From NCBI GenBank assembly GCA_902784805.1, contig CACZWD010000003.1:1-42535 (forward strand): a stretch of DNA of 42,535 bases, read 5' to 3'. Position 1 is the first letter of the stretch, and each line of letters begins with the position of its first letter. This document shows, piece after piece, positions 2,491 to 17,478 of the stretch. The notes under the pieces were generated by a model. That model was not told the origin of the DNA and did no database searches. It saw only the letters and a list, made by a program, of their open reading frames with translations. The stretch is from an uncultured Ruminococcus sp. (GTDB lineage: Bacteria > Bacillota > Clostridia > RUG12999). The position numbers and the translations under genes are program-made.

Positions 2491-2751
2491 ATGTTATACA
2501 ATTTAACAGAAAACAAAATTAAAAAATATAACACAATGAGTTATAAAAACGAAAACGACATTATTGAAACCATCAGAAAATTGGACGAAGATTATGATTA
2601 TACAGAATTAATGCATATTTTTAAAACTAATGAAAACTTTAAAAAAGAATTTGACGTTGGGGCTGCTGCCAACGATGTTGCACTTTTTTCTTCGTATTTA
2701 GGAGCGATAAAGCCATATCATGTTACGGTAGATTTTTATACAACAAGGTGA
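2491..2751 (+). CDS. Small hypothetical protein (86 aa)
   Basis: I do not recognise this protein. It encodes 86 residues, or 71 if translation starts at the second ATG (2536, MSYKNEND). It is Lys/Asn-rich and acidic in the middle (RKLDEDYDYTEL), with no signal peptide, membrane segment or known motif. The end (DVALFSSYLGAIKPYHVTV) is the least biased part. No good ribosome-binding site precedes either ATG, so the start is uncertain. It is the first ORF behind the promoter at 2402, and its TGA overlaps the next candidate ATG (2751) by one base, which suggests translational coupling with the membrane-anchored protein that follows. It is probably a real accessory gene. Confidence 0.55.
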   Translation: MLYNLTENKIKKYNTMSYKNENDIIETIRKLDEDYDYTELMHIFKTNENFKKEFDVGAAANDVALFSSYLGAIKPYHVTVDFYTTR

Positions 2752-2759
2752 TGATTACT

Positions 2760-3341
2760 ATGAAAAAAACTTATATTTTTTGTATAATTCTTGCGGCGAT
2801 TATTATAATTGTGCCTTTATTTTATGCTGAACAGATTGTACGTTTTGTCGGCAAAACAGCTTTAAACGCAATTTTTGCGGAATTGGAACGTGAGGATAAA
2901 GAAGATGAGATAAGAATTGCCAACGGCGAACCGATATACGGCAGAGACACCTGCCTTATATGGGCGAATACATATGAGATATGGAGGCATTCAGGTGAGA
3001 AATATCTTGATATTCAAACAAAGAAAGTATTTGGTGCAATTCTCGAAGAAATAACAATATATAGAAAAATTGATAAAAAGCTGTATATTGTCGCAAGAAC
3101 AGGCTACGCTGTTATTGATGAGGACGCGTTCTGCAAAATATATGTCAATGACGAAAGTTTGTTTAATGCTAACGATCATATTATTGAGCGAATTGAGGAC
3201 GACCATATAAAGTATTTTTCTGAATATAGCAGTTTTTCGCCGACCGAAAGAAGCAACTTTGAAAAGCTTGAAAAAAAGTACGAAAAAAGGCTTGCGCGTA
3301 AGGCGGAAAAAGAAAGGAAAAAAGCTTTAAATGAAAAATAG
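2760..3341 (+). CDS. Small membrane-anchored hypothetical protein
   Basis: I placed the start at ATG 2760 because AAGGTG (2745-2750) lies nine bases upstream; an in-frame GTG at 2748 and ATG at 2751 are alternatives. The product has about 193 residues. The N-terminus MKKTYIFCIILAAIIIIV is a signal anchor or uncleaved signal peptide. The rest is a hydrophilic, presumably extracytoplasmic domain ending in a very basic Lys/Arg/Glu helix (about the last 40 residues). No family was recognised. It overlaps the start of the next gene (3331) by 11 bases, and the four islet genes look like one transcription unit. Function unknown. Confidence 0.65.
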   Translation: MKKTYIFCIILAAIIIIVPLFYAEQIVRFVGKTALNAIFAELEREDKEDEIRIANGEPIYGRDTCLIWANTYEIWRHSGEKYLDIQTKKVFGAILEEITIYRKIDKKLYIVARTGYAVIDEDAFCKIYVNDESLFNANDHIIERIEDDHIKYFSEYSSFSPTERSNFEKLEKKYEKRLARKAEKERKKALNEK

Positions 3342-3879
3342 CAGAGAGAAACGTCATATACCGGTTTTCAAAATAATGGTTTTTATAATACTCGGAGCAA
3401 TTTTAGCCGGACTATTAAGCTTATACATATATCTGCGATTAAGGACTCCGCAAAAGGACGGGCTTTTTATTCCGCCGTCAGAAAAGAAAATCGTCCGTCA
3501 GCTTAACGAGAATTATAAAGAAATGGAATATGTTAAGGATTATGCTATGTCACAGGACAGTTTTAGCTGGCTTTATTGGGATAAGAACAATGTGGAAGCA
3601 GGCAATGAAGAAATAAATGCCTCCGATGTATCGGCAGAGCTCAAAGGTAGCCTTGAAAGGTTATATAATGCAGGCTTCCGTATGATATATGATGAATATG
3701 ACGGTATAAGCTTTGAGCGTTGGCGTGATTTTACATTTCATGTAGGGCTTATATATACTGAAAATCCCGGCTATGCGGAACAAGAAATGAAAAGCAGTAA
3801 ATATTTAAGACACGTGCATTTTAAAGAAACCGGCATAGAAAACTGGTATTATTATAATTATGATTATTATGATGATTAG
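3331..3879 (+). CDS. Membrane-anchored hypothetical protein, intact copy of a duplicated pair
   Basis: The 182-residue product has a short basic N-terminus (KNSREKRHIPVFK), one membrane helix at about 12-34 (VFIILGAILAGLLSLYIYL) and an outer domain rich in Tyr, Asp and Glu that ends in repeated YYNYDYYDD. No known family was recognised. Bases 3355-3591 recur at 4442-4678 with roughly 95% identity by eye, so this is the complete parent or sister of the broken copy at 4430. The next gene (3915) shares the layout of one membrane helix, a charged stretch and a VKDY segment, and may be a distant paralogue. The function is unknown. Clostridia often carry tandem sets of such small anchored proteins. 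Confidence 0.7.
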   Translation: MKNSREKRHIPVFKIMVFIILGAILAGLLSLYIYLRLRTPQKDGLFIPPSEKKIVRQLNENYKEMEYVKDYAMSQDSFSWLYWDKNNVEAGNEEINASDVSAELKGSLERLYNAGFRMIYDEYDGISFERWRDFTFHVGLIYTENPGYAEQEMKSSKYLRHVHFKETGIENWYYYNYDYYDD

Positions 3880-4700
3880 TTTTTGTGGCTTTTGTAAATG
3901 AAATGAGTGGTACTATGCGAATAATTAAACGAATTATAATTGCTTTAATTTCCTTATTGTTGGTTGCGCATTTTGTTTATTATGTTGCTATTCCTGTCTA
4001 TATATTCCGCGGCGGCTTTAAACCTTCCGAAAGAAGGGCGGAAAGAATTTTTCGCAGAGATAAAGATATATTGATTGACGTGAAAGATTATATAGAGGAA
4101 AATAATTACGAGAGCATTCATATTGACAAGCGAGAAGGGGAATTACATATTTACCCGGAAGAAATAAGCATAGATGATGAAAAAATAAGAAATGAAATTC
4201 AGACACTTATTTTTGATAAGCATTATAACATAATAAGCAACAACGAAGGAAATGTAGATTTTCAGATTTGGGCAACGATAGATAAAGCTGTCGGCTTTGT
4301 TTTTAATCTTGACGGCAACACGCCCGACCATGATTTTATTGTAAAAACAAAGGATTTGGGCGATGGCTGGTATCTATATGATGTTGATTTTGTGAAGTGG
4401 AAGTATATGAACAAGAAATAGGTGGTTGAATGACAAAAAAGCATATACCGGTTTTCAAAATAATAGCTTTTATAATACTCGGAGCAATTTTAGCCGGACT
4501 ATTAAGCTTATACATATATCTGCGATTAAGTACTCCGCAAAAGGACGGGCTTTTTATTCCGCCTTCGGAAAAGAAAATCGTCCGTCAGCTTAACGAGAAT
4601 TATAAAGAAATGGAGTATGTCAAGGATTACGCTATGTCACAGGACAGTTTCAAATGGCTTTATTGGGATAAGAACAATATTATGATTATTATGATGATTA
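3355..4700 (+). repeat. Direct duplication (3355-3591 and 3857-3878 repeated at 4442-4700)
   Basis: Two direct repeat units lie 1087 bases apart. The first block is 237 bases at about 95% identity by eye. The second block of 22 bases (ATTATGATT...GATGATTA) is identical and abuts the first in the downstream copy only. The gene at 3915-4421 lies between the units. Confidence 0.85.
3915..4421 (+). CDS. Membrane-anchored hypothetical protein, possible paralogue of its neighbours
   Basis: ATG 3915 (MRIIKRIIIALISLLLV) gives a typical signal-anchor start with about 168 residues. Upstream in-frame starts are GTG 3885 and ATG 3903. One membrane helix (about 4-27) is followed by a charged region, RRAERIFRRDKDILIDVKDY, comparable to KKIVRQLNENYKEMEYVKDY in the flanking genes. 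A folded outer domain follows, with aromatic residues near the end (DGWYLYDVDFVKWKY). I recognise no named family. It lies between the intact and broken copies of the duplicated gene, so the duplication jumped over it or moved a copy downstream. Function unknown. Confidence 0.65.
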   Translation: MRIIKRIIIALISLLLVAHFVYYVAIPVYIFRGGFKPSERRAERIFRRDKDILIDVKDYIEENNYESIHIDKREGELHIYPEEISIDDEKIRNEIQTLIFDKHYNIISNNEGNVDFQIWATIDKAVGFVFNLDGNTPDHDFIVKTKDLGDGWYLYDVDFVKWKYMNKK

Positions 4701-4842: not shown

Positions 4843-5646
4843 TTATTTTACGAGCTTTTCTCTTTCGTCTTTTTCGTTATCCCAGTTTTTGTTGTATGAG
4901 AGCATAACCGACATAACACCCGAATCGACTATTAGCTCGCTGCCGCTTATTGTCCGTGCCTTATCGGAGGACAGGAAATACGCGGAGTTAGCAATATCTT
5001 CGGGATAAGATTCCATACCGAGAGGCCAGTTCGCGCGTTTTTTTTCATAATCGGCTTCGGTATAAGCTGCCCATCGGTCATTATATACCGCACCTACAAC
5101 TATAAGATTGCTTCGTATTCCGAACTTTCCGAGTTCATAACACATATTTCTGTTTAAAACGTCAATAGCGCCTTTTGAAGCGGCATAGGTAATGCGTCCG
5201 GGCAAAGCGCGCTTACTGTGTACCGAGCCTATAAGAACAATGCTTCCGCTATGCTGCTCTTTCATAATTTTTGCGGCTTCCTGACAGCAGAAAAAATATC
5301 CTCTCGCATTGCTGTTCATAACGTGGTCATATTGTTCGGGCGTGGTGGATAATATGCTCTGATTATATCCGGGGTCCGCAGCGTTTGCTACAAGCGTGTC
5401 AAGCCTGCCGAAATCATCAAACACTTTTTTAAAGGTTTCGTGTATTTTTTCGGGATATTCGGTTTCCATAGCATAGCCCTTAACCGTAACATCTTTATAT
5501 ATATCGCCTATTTCTTTTGCTGCGGCATCGGCACTATCTTGTTTGCGGCTTGTAATGCAAACATCATAACCTTCTTCCGCGAATTTCTCTGCGACCGCAA
5601 AACCGATATTCCTTGCGGCGCCTGTAATTAAAACTACCTTTCGCAT
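4843..5646 (-). CDS. SDR-family oxidoreductase (probable sugar or polyol dehydrogenase)
   Basis: The 267-residue product has the classical short-chain dehydrogenase layout: nucleotide-binding TGAARNIGFA (8-17), NAA at 88-90, and the catalytic set S141, Y154 and K158 (GSVHSKRALPG, then YAASK). The family oxidises or reduces alcohols and sugars with NAD(P). The family alone does not define the substrate. As the last gene of a tight operon, two bases after the aldolase stop, it probably oxidises an aldose, a polyol or a pathway aldehyde. ATG 5646 follows GGAG with a seven-base spacer. After the usual SDR end (VDSGVMSV) there is a short charged tail (DNEKDEREKLVK). A terminator follows. Confidence 0.85.
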   Translation of the reverse strand: MRKVVLITGAARNIGFAVAEKFAEEGYDVCITSRKQDSADAAAKEIGDIYKDVTVKGYAMETEYPEKIHETFKKVFDDFGRLDTLVANAADPGYNQSILSTTPEQYDHVMNSNARGYFFCCQEAAKIMKEQHSGSIVLIGSVHSKRALPGRITYAASKGAIDVLNRNMCYELGKFGIRSNLIVVGAVYNDRWAAYTEADYEKKRANWPLGMESYPEDIANSAYFLSSDKARTISGSELIVDSGVMSVMLSYNKNWDNEKDEREKLVK

Positions 5647-5648
5647 AA

Positions 5649-6314
5649 TTATTCTCCCTTTATATTTTTAATGGCGCTTACATGTTCCTTTGCAAGCTCT
5701 TTAATGCCGTCAAAATCACTTTTATCAATAAGGTCGCGCCTTAAAATTGTTATTCCTGTACCGAAAGCTTTTATTCCGGCTTCCGCGTACTCCGGTATAG
5801 TCTGCGGGTTTACGCCGCCCGTCGCCATAAGCGGAATATGCGAAAGCGGAGCCGATATGTTTTGAATATAATGAAGTCCGAGGTCATCGGCGGGGAACAG
5901 CTTAACTATCTGAGCGCCGAGAGTATATGCCTTTTCGATTTCTGTGGGTGTCATAGCGCCGGGTATTGAAATCATGCCGAGGCGCAGAGTTTCTTTTATT
6001 ACTGCCTCGTTTGTGTTGGGGGATATAATGTATTTCGCGCCCGCTTCGTATGCCGCCCTGACTTGCTCAACTGTTAAAACGGTTCCTGCGCCGACATATG
6101 CGTGTCCGTCCGCCGCTTCAATCATTTTTTTGATTGTTTTTACATTTTTTTCTATGCAGTCCGGCGCGGATTGGTCAAAAGTGCTTTCGATAAAACGCAC
6201 ACCGCCTTCTGTTACCGCTTTAACACATGCTTCAATTTTGTCAAGAGGAATACGTCTCGCGATTACAACAAGTTTTTTTTCAAAAAGTTCATTTAACATA
6301 TCCATTATAACCAT
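5649..6314 (-). CDS. KDPG/KDPGal-type 2-keto-3-deoxy acid aldolase
   Basis: The 221-residue class I aldolase resembles the Eda/DgoA family, which splits 2-keto-3-deoxy sugar acids (usually 6-phosphorylated) into pyruvate and an aldehyde. The Schiff-base lysine is K138 in QIVKLFPA, with E43 (FIEST), GAGTV at 76-80, SPN at 98-100 and PGAMTPTEI at 118-126. The segment that reads ETLRT in E. coli Eda is ESTFDQ here, so an arginine near the substrate is missing and a different or non-phosphorylated substrate is possible. The start overlaps the dehydratase stop by 10 bases. AAGGAG is close to ATG 6314; ATG 6305 is an alternative. It very probably acts directly after the upstream dehydratase. Confidence 0.88.
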   Translation of the reverse strand: MVIMDMLNELFEKKLVVIARRIPLDKIEACVKAVTEGGVRFIESTFDQSAPDCIEKNVKTIKKMIEAADGHAYVGAGTVLTVEQVRAAYEAGAKYIISPNTNEAVIKETLRLGMISIPGAMTPTEIEKAYTLGAQIVKLFPADDLGLHYIQNISAPLSHIPLMATGGVNPQTIPEYAEAGIKAFGTGITILRRDLIDKSDFDGIKELAKEHVSAIKNIKGE

Positions 6315-7960
6315 GTCGCTCCTTTCGCTGTTGATGAAACATTTCTGGCAAAAAGCCTTAAGAAGGGTTTGAATTTTTCTTCCTGAAGCTTCCAGTCTGT
6401 TTCGGATAAACGTTTTTCAATTTCTTCATCACTTACATTTAAAGTTATTTCTCTGTTTTTAACGTCAATATGAATTTTGTCGCCGTTACGTATTGCTGCA
6501 AGCGGACCTTTTATGGCAGCTTCGGGAGCTACATAGCCAATGCTGAGTCCGCTTGTGCCGCCGGAAAAACGACCGTCCGTTATAATGGCAACCTTATCAT
6601 GTATGTCCATACCGGCAACTTCTTTCTGGAAGGCAAAAGCTGTCGTTCCGAAACGTCCTTTTGGTCCAAGATAATTTATAACTATTGCGTCTCCCGCGGC
6701 AATATCTCCGTTGCGAAGAGCCTTTATTGCGTCGTCAACCTCTGAAAAAACTTTTGCTTTGCCGTCAAATACCATAAGATTTTCAGGCACGGCGGCAGTT
6801 TTTAAAATCGCTCCTTCCGGGGCAATATTGCCTTTTAAAACCGCGATTCCACCATCACTTGAAATTGGATTGTTAAGAGGATGAATAACATCTTCGTCAT
6901 AAACCACGGCGTTACGGTAATTTTCTTCAAGAGTTTTTCCGTTGATTGTTTTGCAATCCTTATTTAAAAGAGGCAAAAGCGTTTTCATAAGAGCTTTCAT
7001 ACCGCCTGCCCGCTCAAAATCGTTAAAATAATATTTTCCGTTCGGGGCTATTGCTGTAATAAGCGGTATTTTGTGCGACACTTCATCAAAGAAGCTCCAC
7101 CAATCTCTGTCAATACCCGCTTCGTGAGCAATAGCGGGAATATGCAAAAGAAGGTTTGTCGAACCTGCTATGGCAGTATCGGTTATAATTGCGTTTTCTA
7201 TTGCCTTTTCCGTTATAATATCTCTTGCCGTTATGCCTTTTTTAACCATTTCCATAACATATTTGCCGGACTCATACGCTGCTCTGCCAAGCCGTTTATC
7301 GGTAGCGTTTATTGTAGCGTTTCCGGGCACTGTCATTCCTAACGCTTCGGCAATACAGCACATACTGTTGGCGGTTGTCATTGAGCCGCAGGCTCCCGCT
7401 CCGGCATGAGCGCAGGAAACCATACATGAAAATTCTTCATGGCTGACTTTTCCCTGCATAACTTTTCCGACTGTTGTAGAAACTTCGGTAAGCCCGATTT
7501 CACGTCCCTTATAAAAGCACAGAGGCATATATCCGCCCGTTACAATAACTGTCGGTATATTAAGTCTTGCCGCCGCCATAAGCTGTCCCGGAACTATTGA
7601 ATCGCATGTGCCGAGAAGAACCATACCGTCAAACATATTAGCCTCGACATTAAGCTCAATTTCATCTGCGATAAGGTTGCGGCTCGGCAGCTCAATATAG
7701 CGGGGGTCTTTAAGTACCATACCGTCGCAAATACCTGTTGTTACAAGCTCAAACGGCAAACCGCCGGCTTCACGTACTCCGTCCTTTACACGCTGCGCGA
7801 TTTCTTTAAGATGTACGTGCCCGGGATTGTATTCGTTCCACGAATTTACAATCGCGATATACGGTTTTTTTATTTCGTCCTCCGAATACCCCATACCATA
7901 AAGAATACCGTCTCTTTTTACACTTCCGACTCCAAATTCCCATTTACTTCTCTCAAACAT
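6305..7960 (-). CDS. IlvD/EDD-family sugar-acid dehydratase
   Basis: The 551-residue protein belongs to the dihydroxy-acid / 6-phosphogluconate / aldonic-acid dehydratase family, which removes water to give 2-keto-3-deoxy acids using an Fe-S cluster and Mg2+. Likely cluster cysteines are C78 (ICDG, the position used in EDD), C119 (GTCDS) and C191 (ACGSMTTAN). The first IlvD cysteine is G47. E102 in IADEIEL and the GRFSGGTSGLSIG segment with the catalytic serine are present. The metal-binding CDK lysine, carboxylated in characterised members, is Ser121. Because the next gene is a keto-deoxy acid aldolase, a catabolic sugar-acid role is far more likely than valine synthesis. ATG 7960 lies two bases after the kinase stop, behind GAAAGGAAATTAAAA. 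Confidence 0.9.
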   Translation of the reverse strand: MFERSKWEFGVGSVKRDGILYGMGYSEDEIKKPYIAIVNSWNEYNPGHVHLKEIAQRVKDGVREAGGLPFELVTTGICDGMVLKDPRYIELPSRNLIADEIELNVEANMFDGMVLLGTCDSIVPGQLMAAARLNIPTVIVTGGYMPLCFYKGREIGLTEVSTTVGKVMQGKVSHEEFSCMVSCAHAGAGACGSMTTANSMCCIAEALGMTVPGNATINATDKRLGRAAYESGKYVMEMVKKGITARDIITEKAIENAIITDTAIAGSTNLLLHIPAIAHEAGIDRDWWSFFDEVSHKIPLITAIAPNGKYYFNDFERAGGMKALMKTLLPLLNKDCKTINGKTLEENYRNAVVYDEDVIHPLNNPISSDGGIAVLKGNIAPEGAILKTAAVPENLMVFDGKAKVFSEVDDAIKALRNGDIAAGDAIVINYLGPKGRFGTTAFAFQKEVAGMDIHDKVAIITDGRFSGGTSGLSIGYVAPEAAIKGPLAAIRNGDKIHIDVKNREITLNVSDEEIEKRLSETDWKLQEEKFKPFLRLFARNVSSTAKGATWL

Positions 7961-7962
7961 TT

Positions 7963-9111
7963 TTAATTTCCTTTCAGATAATTATAAGTATTTAACGCTA
8001 CCATAAGTTCCTCATTTACAGGCGTTATATATATTTTAATTTTCGAGCTTTCGGTTGATATTAAAAGCGGCTCCCTATCCGCTTTTAAATTTATAAGCCT
8101 ATCATATGTTTCGGCTCCGAGGAATTTTAATCTGTCAATTATTTTTTGCTTTACGAGGACACTGTTTTCACCTATTCCGCCCGAAAAGCTTATTGCGTCA
8201 ACGCCGCCGAGACAGGCGAGAAATGAGCAGATATATTTTGCTACGCTGTAAGCGTAAGCTTCAATTACATCGTCGCAGCCGTTATTTTCAAGCTCACGCA
8301 TATCGCCGTTTTTTCCGCTCATACCTTTTAGACCGCATTTCGTGCTTAAAAAATCTCTTGCGTCATCTATACTCATATTTTCTTTTTCCATAAGATATAG
8401 AAGGGCAAAAGCGTCAATATCACCGCAGCGGTTGTTCATCGGCAGCCCGCTTTGAGGCGAAAAGCCCATACTTGTGTCAAGCGATTTCCCGTCAAGTATA
8501 GCGCATACCGACGAGCTTCCGCCGAGATGCACGGAAATAAGCCTTTTGTTTTCTTTTCCGAGCTTATATGCGGCATAACTGTGCGCAGCGCCATGGAAAC
8601 CGTACTTTCGTATGCCGTATTTTTCTGCGAGAGCAGAATCAATGGAGTACATATAAGCGTATTTTGGAATGGTGCTGTGAAAAGCGGTCTCAAAAGAGCC
8701 TACACACGGAATATCAGGGAAAAGCTTTTTTATTTCGCGTATCGCATTTATATAAGGAATGTTATGCGCGGGAGCAACGCTCAGATATTCTTCCATTTTT
8801 GAAACAACATTATCATCAAGCTCTGCGGTACGGTTGATATTTCCCGCCATAACGGTTTTAAAGGCTATGGCGTTGATTTTAATATCATTTCCGATAAATT
8901 TAAAAACTTTTTTCAAAGCTATCCCGTATCCGCTGCTTGTATCGGTTTTACCGCTTTTTTTAGTTTCATTTTTTTGAAAAACGTAATCACTGTCCGTAGA
9001 AAAAACAGAGCTTATTTGTCCGTTTGCGATAATATTTTGGCGTGTTATCTCGTAAAGTTTAAATTTAAGCGAGGTACTTCCGATATTTAATACAAGTATA
9101 TTAAAGTCCAT
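7963..9111 (-). CDS. Acetate-kinase-family acyl (or carbamoyl) phosphate kinase
   Basis: The 382-residue product has the ASKHA fold of acetate/propionate kinases, which make ATP from an acyl phosphate and ADP. Recognisable parts are NIGSTSLKFKL (9-19), GFHGAAH (171-177), HLGGSSS (195-201), MNNRCGDID (226-233), SFSGGIGEN (309-316) and PVNEELM (364-370). Several near-invariant residues differ: the GHRVVHGGE segment reads AFKTVMAGN (Arg to Lys at 85), FDTAFH reads FETAFH (Asp to Glu at 141), and HLGNGSS reads HLGGSSS. The kinase fold is clear, but acetate is unlikely to be the substrate. The start ATG 9111 (behind GGTGATAAAT) is preferred to 9123. It overlaps the DUF1116 gene, whose product probably supplies its acyl phosphate. 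Confidence 0.85.
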   Translation of the reverse strand: MDFNILVLNIGSTSLKFKLYEITRQNIIANGQISSVFSTDSDYVFQKNETKKSGKTDTSSGYGIALKKVFKFIGNDIKINAIAFKTVMAGNINRTAELDDNVVSKMEEYLSVAPAHNIPYINAIREIKKLFPDIPCVGSFETAFHSTIPKYAYMYSIDSALAEKYGIRKYGFHGAAHSYAAYKLGKENKRLISVHLGGSSSVCAILDGKSLDTSMGFSPQSGLPMNNRCGDIDAFALLYLMEKENMSIDDARDFLSTKCGLKGMSGKNGDMRELENNGCDDVIEAYAYSVAKYICSFLACLGGVDAISFSGGIGENSVLVKQKIIDRLKFLGAETYDRLINLKADREPLLISTESSKIKIYITPVNEELMVALNTYNYLKGN

Positions 9112-10513
9112 ATTTATCACCATATGCTATGAGCGCTTTTTCAAAACATTCAAAAGGAACTCTTGCTGTTCCCGCGCCAAGCCTTTTTCCTGTTTTGGAT
9201 ATCATTCCGCCGTGGATTACGGGTTCGATGCCCGTTTCAATAACCTTTCGTATATCAATTCCTGTAGGCGTACCCCTGTAATTTAAAGCTGGGATAAGAT
9301 AGTTTTTGTTTTCGGTAATGGTGATTTCAGCCATTTCAAGAGTCTGCTCAATTCCGTCGTTCAAGGTTTTGTCAAGCGAACGCATTACGGCAGGCGCCGC
9401 CGCTGCGGCAAAACCTCCGAGACCGGTGCTTTCAAGTATGCAGCTGTCACCAATCCATGGCAGAACCTCATCGGAATTAACGGCAGCTACATATTCACCT
9501 GTAAGCATAGGGGAGGGAGCGTTAAACCACTCGGTTCCCAGACCGCTTACTTTTATAGCGTAATTTACGCCATTTCCGACCATTGCCGTTACAACGGTAG
9601 AATAATCTACGTGACGGACAGCTTCAAGCAGCGACATTGCGGATGCCATACCGAGAGGGTGGAAAAACCTTACCGTTCCGTAAAGAAGGTCAACGCATTT
9701 TTTGCGCTCGTCATCTGTTATATCTGCGTCGAACAGCATTTTCATAAGCTCGTTTGTGGCAATAATTCCCGTTGCGTCCTGCCTTGAATGAAGCTCGTCA
9801 CCCATTTCGACGCCCCTTGTAAATATTTTTCGCATTGCCATTCCGCCGTTTGATTCAAGCACGTTTGTCATTGCGGGAGCAATTATGTCATGCACCATAT
9901 TAAGATGCTCTCTTATACTTTCGTTAAATATGCCCCAGCCTGCAAGCCCACCTCTGTTCGGACCTTCAAACGGAGGGCAAAAGCCTTTAAAGCCCGTGTT
10001 TTTATCCTCAACAATATTTACAGCCATGGAAGGCGTTGTTATACCGGAGCCGGGTCCTACAAGATGATAGTCGTTTGAAGAAACAAAACGGATTTTGCCG
10101 CTTTCAAGCAGTTTTCTTGCCTCATCTTCATCTTTTGCGTATCCTTCAAACATTACGCCGTTTATACCGCCCTGCTTTTGAGTTTCACACATATCTTCCC
10201 ATGCGATATCGGGTCCCGAATGCATTATCATTCCGTCCTCAACACCGGGCACACATTCTTTTGCCGGTTTCATACCTATCCAGTAAGGGTCGGTGTTATC
10301 AAAAATTTCGATAACTTTTTTGTTTGCTTCGTCAATTTTTTTTGAAAAATCCGAATACACTGTTTTTTCAAGCAGAGTTTTTGCGCGCTCGCTTAACGGA
10401 AAGGTTTTTCCCGGCTTCCAGTTAAGCTGAACCGCATTTCCGCCTTGTTGTTTTATTGCGTCCGCAAAAACATCCGTACCCACATTTATAACATTTATTT
10501 CATCTTTTAGCAT
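9101..10513 (-). CDS. DUF1116 protein (YlbE/AllG-like), partner of FdrA
   Basis: The 470-residue product has DUF1116 hallmarks: IMHSGPDIAWEDMCE (96-110), VMFEGYAKDEDEA (120-132), LVGPGSGITTPSM (151-163), GVEMGDELHSRQDATG, the glycine-rich STGLGGFAAAAAP and the C-terminal TGTARVPFECFEKAL-like end. In E. coli the homologue YlbE (AllG), with FdrA and YlbF, is reported to form oxamate carbamoyltransferase. An N-terminal segment (about 5-37, INVINVGTDVF then NWKPGK) resembles the C-terminus of E. coli FdrA rather than YlbE, so the module boundary seems shifted. ATG 10513 follows GGAGAGAG and overlaps the FdrA gene by 7 bases, as expected for a stoichiometric complex. Confidence 0.88.
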   Translation of the reverse strand: MLKDEINVINVGTDVFADAIKQQGGNAVQLNWKPGKTFPLSERAKTLLEKTVYSDFSKKIDEANKKVIEIFDNTDPYWIGMKPAKECVPGVEDGMIMHSGPDIAWEDMCETQKQGGINGVMFEGYAKDEDEARKLLESGKIRFVSSNDYHLVGPGSGITTPSMAVNIVEDKNTGFKGFCPPFEGPNRGGLAGWGIFNESIREHLNMVHDIIAPAMTNVLESNGGMAMRKIFTRGVEMGDELHSRQDATGIIATNELMKMLFDADITDDERKKCVDLLYGTVRFFHPLGMASAMSLLEAVRHVDYSTVVTAMVGNGVNYAIKVSGLGTEWFNAPSPMLTGEYVAAVNSDEVLPWIGDSCILESTGLGGFAAAAAPAVMRSLDKTLNDGIEQTLEMAEITITENKNYLIPALNYRGTPTGIDIRKVIETGIEPVIHGGMISKTGKRLGAGTARVPFECFEKALIAYGDKYGL

Positions 10514-12054
10514 AATTTTTCTCTCTCCGTTTCTTCAATTAAATCTAAAGCAATTTCAGCAATTTCTTTGTTTGTATCGGCAATTATTACGCCGGCATCT
10601 TTTAATATCTGCGCTTGTTTTTCAAAATCCTGAGGGTCCATATCGCTTCCGCAAATTGTTGCGATTACGGTAAGATGCCGTCCTTCCTCCTGCGCCCGTT
10701 TTTTCTCCCCAGTTATAACCTCCGACATAACGGAGGCAGGGTCGGGGTGGAGCGCATATCCGAGCAGAAAATCAAGATATATAACTGCGGTTTCGGGGTC
10801 TCTTGCTTCTTTTATAAAGCGGTTTACCCTTGCCGTCGGGTCAATAGCAACGTGCGCTCTGCCTTTTGTAAAGGTTTCGTCACCAATATCAATTACGGTA
10901 TGTTTATAGCTTTCAAAGGGATTTTCAAGCATAAATTCCGGTTTTATCGCGACATTTGAATAAAGCTCTCTGCCGCTTTTGCTCCATAAAAGCTGTGTTT
11001 CGTCCGCAAGTGAGCCGCCGCAAAGTATGGCTCTGAAATACTTTTGCGAAGGAGCGTATTTTTTAACCTCCGCTTTCACATCAAAATCATTATTAAATAC
11101 CTTTTTAAGAGTAACCTTTTTGCCGCTCGAAAGTTCCATAACCTTTACAGCGGTTTCATCAAAGGATTCGGAGTACATTATGCCGTTTTCTTCAAGCAAT
11201 TTGTTATTTCCGTTTATAAACTGTACAACAACAGGTTTTGAACATTTTTTTATAACGTCAATTATTTTGAGCAGCGCCGACTCGGCAGGGGGTTTTGAAA
11301 TAAGAGCGATAACTTTTGTGTTTTCGTCTTTTTCAAGGGCTTTTATACTCATTGCCATTGTAATTCCGCCAACCTCATCGGACATATCCCTTCCGCCCGT
11401 ACCTATTGCGTGAGAAATACCAAAACCGTTTCGGTGAACAAGCACCATAACCTCCTGAATACCGCTTCCCGAAGCTCCGGCAAGACCGATATTTCCACGA
11501 TGGACCATACTGCAAAGTCCTATTGCCGTGCCGTTTATGAACGATAAGCCGCAGCCCGGTCCCATCATAAACAGTCCTTTTGAAAGCGCAAGTTTTTTAA
11601 GCTCGACTTCATCTTCGATACTTACGTTATCGCTGAACATAAAAACGTTCATTCCGTTTAAAAGGGCTCTCTTTGCCTCTTTTGCCGCATATTCGCCGGC
11701 AACGGATATAACAGCCATATTTGCTTCGGGCACAGCGGCTTTTGCGCCCGATATACTTCTGAACGAGCTTGAAGTATCTGATTTTTCAGAAATGAGTTCT
11801 TCAAATTTTTCTTTTGCTTTTTCACAGTCCGCTTCGGTTTCCGCCCTTACCGCAATAATAAGGTCGTTCGGACCTGTGCTTTCCGCTTCATTCGTCCAAA
11901 GACCGAGGTCGCTGATTGTATCTTTATTAAGCGGTGTGCCCATACCGATTGAAGCATTGTCAACCCCGTCCGTTTCCGCAAGACGCCTTGCAATTTTCAT
12001 AAGAAACACCGAATCGTAATAACGGTTTTTCTCAATGTAATTTTTTATAACCAT
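10507..12054 (-). CDS. fdrA: FdrA-family protein (acyl-CoA-synthetase-like, AllF-like)
   Basis: The 515-residue product aligns by eye with E. coli FdrA: the N-terminal YYDSVFLMKIARRL and GMGTPLNKD (37-45), ISVAGEYAAKEA (116-127), FSDNVSIEDEVELK (140-153), GASGSGIQE (193-201), AIGTGGRDMSDEVGG (216-230), SKPPAES (253-259) and a second Rossmann half with IDPTARV. The fold resembles succinyl-CoA synthetase alpha plus the ligase domain, but the GHAGA phospho-histidine region is missing, so it cannot use the usual phosphohistidine route. E. coli FdrA is reported to be part of oxamate carbamoyltransferase. ATG 12054 follows GAGGAGTTGATAAA and overlaps the DUF2877 gene. It probably forms a complex with the DUF1116 and DUF2877 proteins. 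Confidence 0.9.
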   Translation of the reverse strand: MVIKNYIEKNRYYDSVFLMKIARRLAETDGVDNASIGMGTPLNKDTISDLGLWTNEAESTGPNDLIIAVRAETEADCEKAKEKFEELISEKSDTSSSFRSISGAKAAVPEANMAVISVAGEYAAKEAKRALLNGMNVFMFSDNVSIEDEVELKKLALSKGLFMMGPGCGLSFINGTAIGLCSMVHRGNIGLAGASGSGIQEVMVLVHRNGFGISHAIGTGGRDMSDEVGGITMAMSIKALEKDENTKVIALISKPPAESALLKIIDVIKKCSKPVVVQFINGNNKLLEENGIMYSESFDETAVKVMELSSGKKVTLKKVFNNDFDVKAEVKKYAPSQKYFRAILCGGSLADETQLLWSKSGRELYSNVAIKPEFMLENPFESYKHTVIDIGDETFTKGRAHVAIDPTARVNRFIKEARDPETAVIYLDFLLGYALHPDPASVMSEVITGEKKRAQEEGRHLTVIATICGSDMDPQDFEKQAQILKDAGVIIADTNKEIAEIALDLIEETEREKLC

Positions 12055-12872
12055 TTTATCAACTCCTCACCATTTGCCATACTGTAACCGAACAAAATAC
12101 CATAACATGTTTCAATACCCGAAGTGCTGCCGTATTCCGCCAGTTCGTAGGTTAATGCTTTAAGCTTGTTTCCGTCACCGCAAATTGAATTTATCAGTTC
12201 ATAAAGACTTGAATTTATATAGCCTTCGGCAACATCAATAAGCAAATTTTTGCTTACGGTTGTTGTTTTAACATCTCCTTTCAGCTTTAAAAATTCTGTA
12301 AGCTTTTCGTTAAAACCGGTATAACCGTATAAAAGGTAATTCCATGCCGCAATCCCCGATATAATATCATCGCAGGAAGGTGTAAGACCTACACCGAGAC
12401 CTATTAAGCTTTCAAAACCCTCTGTTTCGTTTTTTTGCATTTTCATAAGTCCGCGTAAAAGCTTTTGCGTATATATTTTTTCGGTGATAACAGGACTTTT
12501 TTTTCCGATTTTTTTTAAAAAACAATAAAATTTTATTATATTTCGCGGCACATCCCCGGATTTTTTCAGTTTTTCTCTGTGAACGGATATAATCTTCGGA
12601 GAATTGGCAATAAAAGCAATATTGCCTACAAAAATACCGTCGTTTTTTTTAACGGCTTTGTCGCCGTTTTCAAGTTCTATACCGCAAAAATCCGTGCCGC
12701 AGTCACAAATATACGCTCTTGTTGAAAATTTTTGCTTATTGTTAAAAACGGTAATCAGCTCGCCGCCGTCCGTAACTATATTAAAGCAATGCCTGTATAT
12801 TCCGCAAATTGTTCCGCTTTGCCATTTAATGCTGTTTGCCCTGTCGCAGACATAATCAATTTCATATATCAT
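12045..12872 (-). CDS. DUF2877 protein (YlbF/AllH-like)
   Basis: The 275-residue product carries the family signature LGVGLTPSCDDIISG at about residues 159-173 (LTPSxDD). DUF2877 proteins are nearly always encoded beside FdrA and DUF1116. In E. coli YlbF (AllH) is the third component of oxamate carbamoyltransferase. The N-terminal half looks beta-rich and the C-terminal half helical, with no membrane segment. The gene overlaps the flavoprotein gene by 11 bases and FdrA by 10, so translation is coupled. There is no strong ribosome-binding site; ATG 12866 is an alternative start. The usual Gly before the Asp pair (TPSGDD) is Cys here. Confidence 0.85.
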   Translation of the reverse strand: MIYEIDYVCDRANSIKWQSGTICGIYRHCFNIVTDGGELITVFNNKQKFSTRAYICDCGTDFCGIELENGDKAVKKNDGIFVGNIAFIANSPKIISVHREKLKKSGDVPRNIIKFYCFLKKIGKKSPVITEKIYTQKLLRGLMKMQKNETEGFESLIGLGVGLTPSCDDIISGIAAWNYLLYGYTGFNEKLTEFLKLKGDVKTTTVSKNLLIDVAEGYINSSLYELINSICGDGNKLKALTYELAEYGSTSGIETCYGILFGYSMANGEELIKWL

Positions 12873-14421
12873 CTTTTGAAAATATAAAGCTCAGGAGGTA
12901 TTTATCATCGGTATTGGGATAATCCTTTCTTGAGTGGACTCCTCTGCTTTCCTTTCGTTTTATTGCCGCTTTAACACAGCAGGTACATACAACAAGCATA
13001 TTTTCACATTCTTTTTTTGAGACCTCCGCTTTAAAATCGGCGGGAGTATAATCACGGATTTGCTCCGATATTTCTTTAAGTTTTGTTTTTAGAAGTACAA
13101 GCTCTTTTTCAGTTCTTAAAGGTCCCATATAATTTGACATATTCTCATATATAGTCTTTTTAATATTTTCAAAAAAATCCTTTTGAGCATTACCGTAAAC
13201 GCTTGTTTGTTCTTCTGAAAAAGATGGATGGGGGACAGAGCAGTTTTTCGCGTATTCCGCCGCGCTTTTCCCTGCAATTGTTCCGAAAACATATACCTCC
13301 GTACCCGCATTTCCGCCGACTCTGTTTGCCCCATGAAGCCCACCTGTAACTTCGCCCGCGGCAAAAAGCCCATTAACCGAAGTGCGGCATTTTTCGTCAA
13401 CGACAACTCCGCCCATAAACGAGTGAGCGCAGGGAGCCACTTCTATTTTTTCTTTTGTAATATCTATTCCCGCGCCGAGAAAACGTTTATAATATAGAAT
13501 ATGGCCTTTTTTGATTTCTTTTTCGGGTATGTCCGTAAGGTCAAGATAAACGCCTCCGTGCGGCGTGCCGTTTCCTTTTTTGATTTCAGCGTAAATAAGC
13601 TTCGCAAGGGAGTCTTTCGGAATTTCGCCCTCGCTGCTATATTCTTTAAGCAAAAAGCGTTCCCCGTTTTTATTTGTTATTTTACCGCCATGACTTAAAA
13701 GCGTTGTGGATATTCCGAGCTTTTGAGGGAAAATACATCTGCACGGCTCAAATTGTATAAACTCCATATCGGTAAGATATGCTCCGGCTCTCAGCGCCGC
13801 TCCGTAGCCGTCGCCTGTCATGCAGGGGGCATATGTGCTTTCGCTTTCTATATGTATTCCTCCGCAGGCAAGAACAACCGCTTTTGCGCAGATATAAAAT
13901 TTAATTTCGTTTTGAAGGTCAAAAACCGATGCGCCGATTACTTTATTATCTTTTGTGATTAAATCACAGAGCATGGCGTTATCTATGATTTTTACACCGT
14001 TTTTTACGGCTTCCTCTTTATATCTTTCAAGCGTGGTTTTACCTGTGTGATTTTCAATATGCACAAGCCGCTCCGTACTGCAGCCAAGAGGTCTAAGCAG
14101 ATTATATCCTTTTTCGTTTTTGTCAAATTTAAGACCTAAATGTTCTATGTTTTTCACTTCATCTGCCGAGTTTTTCGCAAGCGTAAAAGCAAGCTCCTGT
14201 TTTCCTATATATTTGCCGCCTTTAACCGTATCCTCACAAAAGAGCGCTGTGCTGTCGTTTTCGGACACGGCAGCGTTAAAGCCCAGAATATAATTTGAAG
14301 CGGCAATGCTGCTTTTTGAGATGACGGCTACTTTTAAACCGCAAAGCGAAGCGCTATACGCAGCTTTTATTCCCGCCAGTCCGGCGCCGGCAATAAGTAT
14401 ATCGGTATAAACGCTGTTCAT
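12862..14421 (-). CDS. FAD-dependent oxidoreductase of the fumarate reductase/aspartate oxidase superfamily
   Basis: The 519-residue product has the N-terminal FAD motif GAGLAGIKAA (12-21), a second nucleotide motif ending in LACGGIH (184-190), GDGYGAALRAGA (203-214), DMEFIQF (218-224), a capping region, GLFAAGEVTGGLHGANRVGGNA (351-372) and a helical C-terminal domain. It has no signal peptide, haem site or iron-sulphur domain, so it is a soluble single-subunit flavoenzyme. Residues that bind the dicarboxylate in FrdA, SdhA and NadB are altered: QFHPT is QFEPC (E225) and PRD is PKD (K269), whereas H333 and R367 remain. It probably oxidises or reduces another substrate, perhaps an amine or hydroxy acid. 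ATG 14421 lies two bases after the amidohydrolase stop. Confidence 0.85.
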   Translation of the reverse strand: MNSVYTDILIAGAGLAGIKAAYSASLCGLKVAVISKSSIAASNYILGFNAAVSENDSTALFCEDTVKGGKYIGKQELAFTLAKNSADEVKNIEHLGLKFDKNEKGYNLLRPLGCSTERLVHIENHTGKTTLERYKEEAVKNGVKIIDNAMLCDLITKDNKVIGASVFDLQNEIKFYICAKAVVLACGGIHIESESTYAPCMTGDGYGAALRAGAYLTDMEFIQFEPCRCIFPQKLGISTTLLSHGGKITNKNGERFLLKEYSSEGEIPKDSLAKLIYAEIKKGNGTPHGGVYLDLTDIPEKEIKKGHILYYKRFLGAGIDITKEKIEVAPCAHSFMGGVVVDEKCRTSVNGLFAAGEVTGGLHGANRVGGNAGTEVYVFGTIAGKSAAEYAKNCSVPHPSFSEEQTSVYGNAQKDFFENIKKTIYENMSNYMGPLRTEKELVLLKTKLKEISEQIRDYTPADFKAEVSKKECENMLVVCTCCVKAAIKRKESRGVHSRKDYPNTDDKYLLSFIFSKDDI

Positions 14422-14423
14422 TT

Positions 14424-15347
14424 TTATTCCTCACATTCTCCAAGTAATTTAAGCGCATTTTTACGGCAAATTTTTTCATATGTTTCAAAAGAAATTTTAC
14501 CGTCAAGATACGCATTGTCAAGAAATTCCGAGAGCTTAAGCATATCATACGCGGGGTTTTGGGGATTGATATTTTCGGGGTCGTGAATATCTGTTGCGTA
14601 GAAAATTTTGTCCGCAAATTCTTCCATAAATTTATATGTATAATCAAGGTCACGCGCCATGGCACGATATCCTGAAAGTGAAGATAAATCACAGTACAGG
14701 TTGCTGTATTTTCTCATAAGCTCTCCGACTCTGCCTTCGCGTACAACCCTGCCGGCAGGATAAGAATCTCGTGTTTCTTCGGTCACATCGGCGCCAAGCT
14801 CCGACCAAAATCTTACGGAATGACCGATAACTTTAAGCTCCGGAAACATTTTAAGCACTTTTTCAAGCTTAGGCAGACCAAGCTCATCTACAACGCCGTA
14901 ATCATTTTTGGGTTTTCCAAAATGCAGCGTTACGGACATACCGCATTTTTCGCAGTGTGAAAAGAGATTAAGCAAACGAGGGTCATCAAGCGGGATATTG
15001 GGTATCAGTTCACTTACACCTTTTGCGCCTTGCGATTTATAATAGTTTAAATAATGCGAAAAATCCGTTTGAGGATTATTGTTTCCAAACCTCGGGTCGA
15101 TTCCGCAGAACCACCATCCGATTGTATTATTATATTTTTCGGCAATTCTTTTTGCTTCTCTCGGAGAAAGTCTTTCGGTTGTAAATTCAGGGCAGGTTCC
15201 GGGAGGCAGCAGAACGCCTTTTTCAACGCCTATTTTATCATATATTTTTCTAAGCTCTTTCACCGTAGGATAAAAATGCCCCGATAATTTCGGAATACCC
15301 CTTTCTTCAATACAATGAACGTGCATATCTATTTTTTTTAACAGCAC
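14424..15347 (-). CDS. Amidohydrolase-2 family metal-dependent hydrolase (lactonase or amidase candidate)
   Basis: I chose GTG 15347 because GGAGG lies eight bases upstream; the frame is open to ATG 15398, but that extension looks like leader. The 307-residue product starts directly with the beta-strand and metal ligands KKIDMHVH (H9, H11), followed by LHFGK, VIGHSVRF and FYATDIHD, the usual later His and Asp ligands of the TIM-barrel amidohydrolase-2 group. The family contains lactonases, decarboxylases and amide hydrolases. First in the operon, with a dehydratase and aldolase downstream, it may open a sugar lactone. With the FdrA module present, cleavage of a cyclic amide or ureide is an equal possibility. 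Confidence 0.82.
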   Translation of the reverse strand: MLLKKIDMHVHCIEERGIPKLSGHFYPTVKELRKIYDKIGVEKGVLLPPGTCPEFTTERLSPREAKRIAEKYNNTIGWWFCGIDPRFGNNNPQTDFSHYLNYYKSQGAKGVSELIPNIPLDDPRLLNLFSHCEKCGMSVTLHFGKPKNDYGVVDELGLPKLEKVLKMFPELKVIGHSVRFWSELGADVTEETRDSYPAGRVVREGRVGELMRKYSNLYCDLSSLSGYRAMARDLDYTYKFMEEFADKIFYATDIHDPENINPQNPAYDMLKLSEFLDNAYLDGKISFETYEKICRKNALKLLGECEE

Positions 15348-15527
15348 TTTAAACCCCTCCCGAATATTTTTCCTATATATAATGTAATTCATAATCACGA
15401 AAAAATGAATGCTTAAAATTATACAAAAATTTTTTTTATTTTAGGGCTTGCAAATTTTGGTTTTTTGTAGTATAATAAAATATTAAGTCTGTATTTCATA
15501 TCCTTTAAAGAGAGGAATGTTATATAA
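15348..15527. promoter_or_regulatory. Divergent control region between operon and regulator
   Basis: A strong plus-strand promoter faces the regulator gene. On the minus strand, facing the operon, I see only a TATATA -10-like box about 30 bases before GTG 15347 and a poor TTTTCG -35, which fits a promoter needing an activator. The six-base inverted repeat ATTCAT (15387-15392) / ATGAAT (15405-15410) is a weak operator candidate. Confidence 0.45.
15448..15476 (+). promoter_or_regulatory. Promoter of the PBP-like regulator gene
   Basis: TTGCAA (15448-15453) and TATAAT (15471-15476) with a 17-base spacer, 51 bases before the start codon at 15528. Confidence 0.78.
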
Positions 15528-16610
15528 ATGAAAAACGAAAAAATCCCTGCCGTCATTGAAAAAAGCTTTAAAAACACTGTTTGGTGCAAGGAAATTTTAG
15601 AAGGAATAGGAAAACATAATTTTTTTGATATCGGAGAAAACGGCTTTTGCAATCTTGAAGAAAACTCCGTCATATTGATTATAGGTTCGTCAAATTATTT
15701 TTTAAATTCAAATATAAACGAATGTATGCGGCATAATTTAAAAGCTGTTGTTGTCGGAACCGATTTTAACGATTCCGCTCATAACATTAGCTGCGTTGTT
15801 GTAGATAGGGCATCGGCAACCTTCAGAGCCGTAAAATATTTCAGTCTGCTTGAAAAATTACCCATAGCGCTTTTTGGAATATCAAGATATTCAAGCTCGG
15901 ATTTAAGTAAAAAGGAAGCATTTAAAAAAGCAAGCGCGGCGTTATCGCTTGATTTTTCGGAAGATGATATATATTATTTTGATGAAGGCAGCGTTAAATG
16001 TACCATGACTTTTTTGAAAAACGCCAAAAAATATAAGTCGGTTATATGCTCAAACGATTATTTCGCGACAGCGCTTGTATATTATGCGGCGCATGCCGGG
16101 ATAGCCGTACCCGATGATTTAATTATAATGGGATACGGAAATTCACCGATAGGCGAAAAAGTGCGCCCTTCTCTTTCGACGGTAGCTCCCAAATACCGTC
16201 AAATGGGTATTCAGGCAGCTAAAATATACTCATATCTGATGGCAAATAAAGATGTTAATTCGGTCAATGTTTTTGTGGATTATGATATAATAATAAGAGA
16301 AAGCACAGGTAAAGCGGAAATTATAAAAAAAAGCAGTCAACTCATGGATAATTTTCTTCCTTGTCACAGCAGTATGTTTAATGATGATTTTATAAGCAAA
16401 ATTACAGCTCTTGACGCGGTCATTTACAATGCTGACGAAACCACAATGAAAATTTTACGCGGGATCGTTAATGATATTTCATATGCCAAGCTTGCCGAAA
16501 CGCTTTTTCTTTCAGATACGGCGTTAAGATACCGGTTAAACAAAATTTTTTCGATGACTTATTGCAGTTCCCGAAAAGAGTTAAAAGAACTTCTGCAAAT
16601 TATTTTTTGA
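15528..16610 (+). CDS. Transcription regulator: LacI-type sensor domain with a C-terminal helix-turn-helix
   Basis: The 360-residue product is mostly a periplasmic-binding-protein fold of the LacI/GalR sensor type (about 30-280): VILIIGSSNYF, VVVDRASATFRAVKYF, SVICSNDYFATALVYYA, VPDDLIIMGYGNSPIGEKVRPSLSTV and a final IIIRES. The N-terminus has no LacI helix-turn-helix. Instead the last 60 residues (AKLAETLFLSDTALRYRLNK, then SSRKEL) look like a LuxR/GerE-type helix-turn-helix. Sensor first and DNA-binding domain last is unlike LacI and also unlike AraC-type XylR, which has two helix-turn-helix motifs. It diverges from the nine-gene operon and probably controls it by binding a sugar-like ligand. 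GAGAGG lies 12 bases before the start. Confidence 0.82.
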   Translation: MKNEKIPAVIEKSFKNTVWCKEILEGIGKHNFFDIGENGFCNLEENSVILIIGSSNYFLNSNINECMRHNLKAVVVGTDFNDSAHNISCVVVDRASATFRAVKYFSLLEKLPIALFGISRYSSSDLSKKEAFKKASAALSLDFSEDDIYYFDEGSVKCTMTFLKNAKKYKSVICSNDYFATALVYYAAHAGIAVPDDLIIMGYGNSPIGEKVRPSLSTVAPKYRQMGIQAAKIYSYLMANKDVNSVNVFVDYDIIIRESTGKAEIIKKSSQLMDNFLPCHSSMFNDDFISKITALDAVIYNADETTMKILRGIVNDISYAKLAETLFLSDTALRYRLNKIFSMTYCSSRKELKELLQIIF

Positions 16611-16623
16611 GAAAGGAAATATA

Positions 16624-17478
16624 ATGGATATTGTTTTAAAAAATGAGTTTCTTACAGTAAAAATCAATTCACGCGGAGCAGAGCTTCACAGCATAAAAAA
16701 AGGGGATACCGAATATATCTGGCAGGCTGACCCCGAGGTATGGGGCAGCAGCGCGCCTGTTCTTTTTCCGATATGCGGGCGGCTTAAAGACAATGCGTAT
16801 AATTATAAAGGCAAAGAATACAAGCTTAATCCTCATGGATTTGCGAGAAATCTTGATTATAGGACGGAAAAGCTTACGGAAACCGAAGCTCTGCTTTCGG
16901 CGGAAGCCAATGAAGAAACACGGAAGGTTTATCCTTTTGAATTTAAGTTTTTTGTTGGTTTTAAGCTTTGTGAAACCAAGCTTAAAATTACATATTCGGT
17001 ACAAAATATATCGGGCAGCCGAATATATTTTTCTTTCGGAGGACATGAGGGCTATGCCTGTCCGGAAGGCGCGGAAGAATATTCGGTTGCGTTTCCAAAA
17101 GATACCGCTTTAACACGCCATATGTTAAGCGAAGGCTTTTTCAACGGAAAAACCGAGAGTATTGAGCTTGAAAACGGCGAATTAAAGCTCCGTTACGATG
17201 AGTTTGAAAAATGCACATATATTTTTAAAACCTTGTGCTCGGACAGTGTAATTTTACATAATAAAGATAATTCAAGGCGTATCAGAGTAAGCTTTGAAAA
17301 AGATATAAAAACCCTTGCGCTGTGGACGCTGCGTGGCAGAAAATACGTTTGTATAGAGCCATGGTGGGGAACATCTCAAAACGAAAGCTTTAACGGGAGT
17401 TTTGACAAAAAGGACGGTGTTGTTTCGCTTGACGCGGGCAAAACCTTCACGCGTACTCACTGCATAGAAATTCTTTAA
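16624..17478 (+). CDS. LacX-like aldose 1-epimerase family protein
   Basis: The 284-residue protein has the galactose-mutarotase fold. Visible features are NSRGAELHSI, the ICGRLKDNAYNYKG segment, the conserved NPHGFARN (His at about 72), SFGGHEGYACPEG, and a late CIEPWWG motif typical of the LacX branch. Enzymes of this fold interconvert alpha and beta aldoses; LacX-type members have poorly defined sugar or sugar-phosphate substrates. It begins 13 bases after the regulator stop behind GAAAGGAAATATA, so the two are co-transcribed. Its place beside the sugar-acid operon suggests preparation of the sugar substrate. The stop codon overlaps that of the convergent ABC-F gene by four bases with no terminator between. 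Confidence 0.85.
   Translation: MDIVLKNEFLTVKINSRGAELHSIKKGDTEYIWQADPEVWGSSAPVLFPICGRLKDNAYNYKGKEYKLNPHGFARNLDYRTEKLTETEALLSAEANEETRKVYPFEFKFFVGFKLCETKLKITYSVQNISGSRIYFSFGGHEGYACPEGAEEYSVAFPKDTALTRHMLSEGFFNGKTESIELENGELKLRYDEFEKCTYIFKTLCSDSVILHNKDNSRRIRVSFEKDIKTLALWTLRGRKYVCIEPWWGTSQNESFNGSFDKKDGVVSLDAGKTFTRTHCIEIL

Follow-up and report, generated by a model that had tools for sequence, protein, structure and literature searches.

A derived acetokinase-family kinase, proposed to act on 2-hydroxyacyl phosphates, beside a variant FdrA-AllG-AllH module in a predicted sugar-acid operon

The window analyzed is a stretch of 42,535 nucleotides from an uncultured Ruminococcus sp. (contig CACZWD010000003.1 of assembly GCA_902784805.1). 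Its minus strand carries an operon encoding, in the order of transcription, an Amidohydro_2-like protein, an FAD flavoprotein, AllH, FdrA, AllG, an acetokinase-family kinase, an IlvD/Edd dehydratase, a KDPG aldolase, and a short-chain dehydrogenase (SDR). Divergent from this operon lie the genes for an aldose epimerase and for a regulator whose sensor domain is of the LacI type (Table 1). Three consecutive ORFs of 197, 182, and 178 aa without a Pfam match were also noted at 2748-4421 on the plus strand.

Table 1. Genes of the operon and of its divergent neighbors, with the evidence for their assignment
Feature	Coordinates	Strand	Evidence
Short-chain dehydrogenase (SDR)	4843..5646	-	PF13561, E 3e-51
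KDPG/KHG-type aldolase	5649..6314	-	PF01081, E 1e-34
IlvD/Edd-family dehydratase, proposed sugar-acid dehydratase	6305..7960	-	PF00920/PF24877; ilvD equivalog 584 vs cut-off 618, below
Derived acetokinase-family kinase, proposed 2-hydroxyacyl-phosphate kinase	7963..9123	-	PF00871, motifs, trees
AllG/DUF1116 subunit, K-type	9101..10513	-	PF06545, E 1e-56; K-type motifs, clade
FdrA/AllF subunit (succinyl-CoA synthetase alpha-like)	10507..12054	-	NF004760, 477 bits, above cut-off; 3DMY, E 9e-74
AllH/DUF2877 subunit	12045..12872	-	PF11392, E 4e-18
FAD flavoprotein, fumarate reductase / L-aspartate oxidase type	12862..14421	-	PF00890, NCBIfam
Amidohydro_2-like protein, candidate sugar lactonase	14424..15398	-	PF04909, E 1.6e-5, just below cut-off
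Regulator with LacI-type sensor domain (Peripla_BP_3)	15528..16610	+	PF13377, E 2e-16
Aldose 1-epimerase; supports sugar context	16624..17478	+	PF01263, E 2e-24

The kinase gene starts with an ATG and encodes 386 aa; reading of the interval 7963-9111 on the plus strand was ruled out by its many stops. A second in-frame ATG at 9111 (residue 5) is perhaps the true start, and the overlap with the DUF1116 gene that had been reported in the original prediction amounts to 23 bases if translation begins at the first ATG and to 11 if it begins at the second. The protein had been called an acetate kinase homologue of the ASKHA type, and this was borne out by PF00871, which matched over the full length (profile positions 2-391 of 392, E 2e-92, 310 bits against a cut-off of 22) and was the only domain found in the Pfam scan of the protein. 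The score against TIGR00016, the acetate/propionate family, was also above the cut-off (299.8 versus 293.4). The nearest solved relatives were the acetate kinases 1tuu, 1g99, and 2iir, and the identity to ordinary acetate kinases of related genomes was ~33-42%. An ordinary AckA (G000:C28, L001) is also encoded in the host genome, directly downstream of a phosphotransacetylase-like ORF that we take, on our own reading of its sequence, to be Pta. The window kinase is therefore a second acyl kinase.

The kinase was aligned to Methanosarcina AckA (1tuu), whose numbering is used here, and to E. coli AckA and TdcD. The residues F90, K91, M94, A122, E148, A182, G211, S212, and Q233 replace H, R, H, L, D, T, N, G, and L, respectively, and N7, S10, S12, K14, V93, H123, F179, H180, P232, R241, G331, and E384 are retained. 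The three altered motif elements described in the original prediction were thus found, with Asp148 to Glu and Asn211-Gly212 to Gly-Ser given correctly, and the ATP site was preserved in the alignment as had been said. The “His to Ala” change given for GHRVVHGG (AFKTVMAG in the window kinase) was an error, since the actual changes include His90 to Phe, Arg91 to Lys, His94 to Met, and Gly95 to Ala; the exchanges of Leu122 for Ala, Thr182 for Ala, and Leu233 for Gln had been overlooked.

The position of the kinase in its family was deduced from trees. In 60 related genomes, an initial search detected three close relatives (61, 49, and 44% identical), and a scan of named genome contigs with the alignment of close relatives gave 80 loci, 76 with the derived signature and 4 ordinary (L071, L089, L091, and L092). 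The tree of 99 rows was split by a 100/100 branch into 82 derived and 17 ordinary rows, the latter including E. coli AckA, TdcD, and the AckA of the host genome. Left out were L034 (an 885-aa open frame), the window duplicates L002 and L003, and L004, a duplicate of G059. The window kinase has the signature K91/E148/G211/S212/Q233 and sits in the derived clade, not among AckA and TdcD. This agrees with the earlier suggestion of a kinase for another acyl phosphate, as does the separate ordinary AckA. Members of the derived clade were found in Planctomycetota, Verrucomicrobiota, Bacillota, Latescibacterota, Gemmatimonadota, Acidobacteriota, Ignavibacteriota, Spirochaetota, Poribacteria, and others. 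As one part of the best explanation given below, and with the same reserve, the kinase is tentatively taken to belong to an old and widespread side clade of the acetokinase family. We know of no member of the derived clade with an established enzymatic activity.

The substitutions proved to be clade-wide, and the idea that they are peculiar to the FdrA context was rejected. K91, G211, S212, and Q233 were present in 82 of the 82 derived rows and in none of the 17 ordinary rows, and chance is therefore excluded. E148 was present in 80 of the 82 derived and none of the ordinary rows, F90 in 80 of the derived rows, and H123, H180, R241, and E384 in all 82. The N-terminal extensions of some rows were cut back by a fixed rule, and 4 gaps at N7-K14 result from this. 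According to PMC6461089, R91 and R241 lie at the acetate carboxylate, and R91 is essential in characterized enzymes; in PMC3475010, the equivalents of V93, L122, F179, and P232 surround the acetate, and those of D148 and E384 are at the metal. From these published assignments, the changes would lie mostly where the acyl group and the metal bind; L122A is predicted to widen the pocket, and Q233 adds a polar side chain. We accordingly suggest, as a further part of the best explanation and no more firmly than the whole, that R91K, L122A, D148E, N211G, G212S, and L233Q reshaped the acyl site to take groups that exceed acetyl in size or polarity.

The neighborhoods of the derived kinases were compared by clustering and by family searches of representatives. 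The neighbors included class II aldolase, PduL phosphotransacylase, aldehyde dehydrogenase, BMC shell protein, lactate/malate dehydrogenase, and a DeoR regulator. In 43 of the 76 derived loci (a lower bound; the fetched flanks vary in length), two or more of the four families PduL, class II aldolase, aldehyde dehydrogenase, and BMC shell lay within 10 kb, which was the case for none of the 4 ordinary loci. As judged from their gene content, these 43 loci are of the PVM microcompartment type. According to PMC4207490, the PVM locus includes an “acetate kinase” and serves the breakdown of fucose and rhamnose via lactaldehyde; lactyl-CoA, lactyl-phosphate, and lactate are drawn as steps in PMC8857213, and PMC8706344 contains a similar statement on lactyl-CoA. 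Since the derived clade occurs in PVM loci, where lactyl phosphate is the expected intermediate, the window kinase is probably a 2-hydroxyacyl kinase of the lactyl or glycolyl type and not a carbamate kinase. A 2-hydroxyacyl phosphate is the commonest context-based reading for the clade, and others exist. It counts against this reading that lactyl phosphate is itself only predicted for PVM loci.

Other settings of the clade were also observed. L018 and L019 adjoin a lactate racemase-like gene and a UxaA-type gene, and an HMGL-like gene was found in L018 and L025. In L025, a Pta/Ptb phosphotransacylase gene (9028-9936, plus strand) directly precedes the derived kinase, downstream of the HMGL-like gene, which gives a route into the clade without a microcompartment. 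Because of this Pta/Ptb gene and of the lactate racemase-like and HMGL-like genes near L018, the substrate range of the clade may be broader than the lactaldehyde loci imply. The kinases of L005 and L015 are sisters of the window kinase and lie beside a fused EtfB-EtfA-like gene; FGGY, PfkB, and KduI genes near L015 place this kinase branch in another sugar context. No FdrA or AllG was found near the 80 kinase loci of the genome scan, where one weak AllH-like match (42 bits) was seen in L073, and an FdrA context as a typical feature of the derived clade was therefore rejected.

The FdrA module was analyzed from the side of AllG. A search of 391 genomes of the class gave a match in 23, and 20 stretches around matches were read. 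After exclusion of rows below 150 bits or 250 residues and of identical rows, the alignment contained 59 rows, assigned to a K-type group (7), a generic group (51), and one long row (L120) outside both. The K-type AllGs come from 7 loci in 6 genomes (the window, G059, G179, G020 twice, G049, and G274) and form a clade with 100/99 support in a tree that flags long branches. Their motifs RFFH, (P/Q)WIGDS, GGxxGWG, RQ, and (H/N)GG(M/I) replace motifs that are retained in the 51 generic rows, and the motifs of E. coli AllG and of carbamate-kinase-linked AllGs were not found in the window AllG. An IlvD/Edd dehydratase was found in 7 of 7 K-type loci and in none of the 13 generic loci, one of the G020 loci being split over L131 and L134, two contigs that share a terminal overlap of 208 bases at 98%. 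Sequence beyond AllG is visible in 6 K-type loci, and in 5 of them the next gene is that of the derived kinase; in the split G020 locus, no kinase lies between AllG and IlvD. The 13 generic loci, which had longer flanks, contained no acetokinase, and 3 had a carbamate-kinase-like gene in reach; the earlier premise, that a carbamate kinase usually accompanies an FdrA module, is thus borne out only partly.

The gene content around the K-type module was also compared. The order in G049 is a solute-binding protein (SBP), GH-like, a glucose 1-dehydrogenase-like SDR, IlvD, flavoprotein, FdrA, AllG, kinase, AllH, and a metallo-beta-lactamase-fold protein, and this operon reads as if it encoded one enzyme per step. 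A KDPG aldolase is present in some K-type loci, and L129 also has an enolase-type acid-sugar dehydratase. The flavoprotein is encoded in the window and in L129, L132, L133, and L135, and our guess is that it is a 2-keto-3-deoxy acid 4-dehydrogenase; to our knowledge, no fumarate reductase-like protein has been described as a 4-hydroxy dehydrogenase. The window SDR is ~27-32% identical to those of L132, L133, and L135, and may differ from them in function. The best PDB matches of the L133 SDR were glucose 1-dehydrogenases, and L-KDFDH (8XWK) was absent among the best 60 PDB matches of either SDR. For the Amidohydro_2-like protein, no sequence match was found in the PDB, and the structure model, built from two sequences, was poor (mean pLDDT 52.7); its assignment as a sugar lactonase is weak. 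No K-type operons beyond those known turned up in the family of G049 (1 of 13 genomes), in the order of G059 (2 of 16), or among the phylum-sample loci that were read (L154-L182), and plasmid relatives of AllG were all <60% identical. In the G020 locus on L131 (950-4198, plus strand), FdrA and AllG are fused in one open frame of 1083 codons to the contig end; open frames of ~1000 aa were also seen in the generic loci L137 and L143. The AllG of L120 (G315) stands alone, has RQ and HGG-like motifs, and is otherwise unlike both the K-type and the generic rows, possibly representing a third FdrA-module subfamily.

All five FdrA operons with a kinase carry one of the derived clade, at two positions of the tree. 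The kinases of the window, L129, and L130 (window, G059, and G179) group with those of L005 and L015 (100/100), and the kinases of L132 and L133 (G020 and G049) lie among planctomycete kinases (99/92). Forcing the five into one clade cost 68 log-likelihood units (p-AU 9.6e-13, 38 rows), and a single clade was rejected. These two positions, with a single clade for the AllG partner, indicate from the trees that K-type FdrA operons acquired a kinase of the derived class, or exchanged their kinase for one, on two or more occasions. This repeated recruitment would be explained best by a K-type module that yields an acyl phosphate of the kind this class accepts.

Taken as a whole, the operon looks like a pathway for sugar acids in which the customary hydrolase of 2,4-diketo acids is missing. 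No match to the FAH-family hydrolase (PF01557) was found in the host genome (84% complete), for which 11 of 14 controls were positive. Oxalurate (H2N-CO-NH-CO-COO-) has the skeleton of a 2,4-diketo acid (R-CO-CH2-CO-COO-), and oxamate has that of pyruvate, the members of each pair being isosteres. Because of this isosterism, the FdrA-AllG-AllH variant is proposed to cleave 2,4-diketo-3-deoxy acids. The known reaction of AllFGH is oxalurate + Pi <-> oxamate + carbamoyl phosphate, as given in PMC11326118. In Route III, as set out in PMC6336799 and PMC11199699, an FAH-family hydrolase cleaves the 2,4-diketo acid to pyruvate and glycolate or lactate.

In the proposed route, a sugar would be converted to its lactone by the SDR, the lactone to the aldonate by the Amidohydro_2-like or a metallo-beta-lactamase-type lactonase, the aldonate to a 2-keto-3-deoxy acid by IlvD/Edd, and this to a 2,4-diketo-3-deoxy acid by an FAD or SDR dehydrogenase. 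The FdrA-AllG-AllH variant would cleave the product with phosphate to pyruvate and an acyl phosphate, by analogy to oxalurate phosphorolysis, and the derived kinase would convert the glycolyl or lactyl phosphate to the acid and ATP. Gene content, families, clade membership, motif shifts, and recurrence are the observed basis of this route, from which every substrate, the phosphorolytic C-C cleavage, the roles of the flavoprotein and the lactonase, and the direction were inferred. A rebuilt 2-hydroxyacyl-phosphate kinase downstream of a variant FdrA-AllG-AllH in a sugar-acid route is our best explanation, held with slightly less than even confidence. The fuller proposal, that a paralogue of FdrA-AllG-AllH performs phosphate-dependent C-C cleavage to pyruvate and a 2-hydroxyacyl phosphate, from which a rebuilt acetate kinase makes ATP as a member of a 2-hydroxyacyl (lactate/glycolate) kinase clade shared with fucose/rhamnose microcompartments, is offered with somewhat more doubt. 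Several observations speak against the route. The split G020 locus lacks an adjacent kinase, the KDPG aldolase offers an alternative fate (aldol cleavage) for the 2-keto-3-deoxy acid, the SDRs of the window and G049 are just ~30% identical, and the lactonase call rests on a Pfam match below the cut-off. Furthermore, the window IlvD, the only one found in the host genome (84% complete), could serve valine/isoleucine synthesis.

The kinase might instead be an acetate/propionate kinase in all but sequence, with acetyl or propionyl phosphate supplied by the FdrA module or another enzyme. The retention of the catalytic N7, H123, H180, R241, and E384, the passing of TIGR00016, and the pairing of a clade member with Pta/Ptb in L025 are consistent with this reading, but it was judged unlikely, as the essential R91 (PMC6461089) is Lys in 82 of 82 and D148 is Glu in 80 of 82 derived rows, and the genome has an ordinary AckA too. 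At the other extreme, R91 and D148, the latter equivalent to a metal ligand, both matter in AckA (PMC6461089 and PMC3475010), and R91K with D148E could have destroyed catalysis and left an inactive or regulatory paralogue. This was deemed highly improbable because the specific new residues are invariant or nearly so over 82 diverse members from many phyla.

The original prediction had also considered that an acetate kinase scaffold had given rise to a carbamate kinase; such an enzyme would serve an ordinary carbamoyl-forming FdrA module acting on a ureido compound. The place of the kinase gene after the FdrA module is indeed that of the carbamate kinase gene in the E. coli fdrA operon, and the genome has no carbamate kinase above the cut-off (the best TIGR00746 match, elsewhere than the kinase, had 30 bits against 358). 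The Amidohydro_2-like protein and the aspartate-oxidase-like flavoprotein would suit nitrogen chemistry, and in an assay reported in PMC9843812 the activities of carbamate kinase and acetate kinase could not be distinguished, which makes the former chemically conceivable on such a scaffold. This reading was nevertheless given a low probability, since the kinase shares its clade with kinases found mostly in microcompartment loci, which point to lactaldehyde and not to a carbamoyl source, the AllG is changed at conserved sites and its motifs are unlike those of carbamate-kinase-linked AllGs, and K-type loci contain IlvD and sugar genes, as in the sugar-acid operon of the window. The direction could also be ATP consuming, with the kinase activating an acid to its phosphate and the FdrA module using that phosphate as the donor to build a diketo or amide compound. 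AllFGH is reversible, with kinetics measured with carbamoyl phosphate and oxamate (PMC11326118), but the dehydratase, aldolase, LacI-type regulator, and mutarotase of the window and the GH-like genes near the G049 operon read as catabolic, and we regard this direction as improbable.

On the preferred reading, that of a 2-hydroxyacyl-phosphate kinase, the acid phosphate from which the enzyme forms ATP is probably not acetyl phosphate, a hint that anaerobes may gain energy from sugars in a way not yet described. If this is true, a substrate class would be named for a large branch of a family that is automatically annotated as acetate kinase, and the FdrA/DUF1116/DUF2877 family would have a second chemistry. 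Anaerobes would gain ATP from nonphosphorylated sugar acids, in an energy-conserving counterpart of the FAH-hydrolase sugar pathways. In searches of the open-licence PMC literature, we recognized no link of FdrA modules to sugar acids and no description of phosphorolytic 2,4-diketo acid cleavage, and “lactate kinase” together with “acetate kinase” was not found. As far as these searches reach, what is new is the assignment of the subfamily and the operon, the acetokinase family itself being known.

Compared with known systems, the window kinase shares with AckA and TdcD (PF00871, ASKHA fold) the full-length homology, the ATP site, H123, H180, R241, and E384, and differs in R91K, L122A, D148E, N211G, G212S, and L233Q and in its separate clade (100/100). 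With the “acetate kinase” of PVM microcompartments it has in common the derived clade and the signature residues, whereas the 19 ORFs scanned in the window (to 24139) include no BMC shell, PduL, or class II aldolase gene, and FdrA-AllG-AllH is adjacent. The AllFGH oxamate carbamoyltransferase with AllK (E. coli fdrA-ylbE-ylbF-ybcF) likewise consists of three adjacent subunits plus an acyl phosphate kinase, but the window differs in the AllG clade and motifs, in the kinase fold, and in having sugar-acid rather than allantoin genes. With the Route III sugar pathways (LRA5/LRA6, FucF/FucG, and the H. huttiense pentose route), the window shares a set of dehydrogenase, possible lactonase, and acid-sugar dehydratase, which would reach the 2-keto-3-deoxy acid and, with a 4-dehydrogenase, the 2,4-diketo acid. 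In contrast to Route III, the FdrA module and kinase stand in place of an FAH-family hydrolase, none being detected in the window genome, and ATP would therefore be gained.
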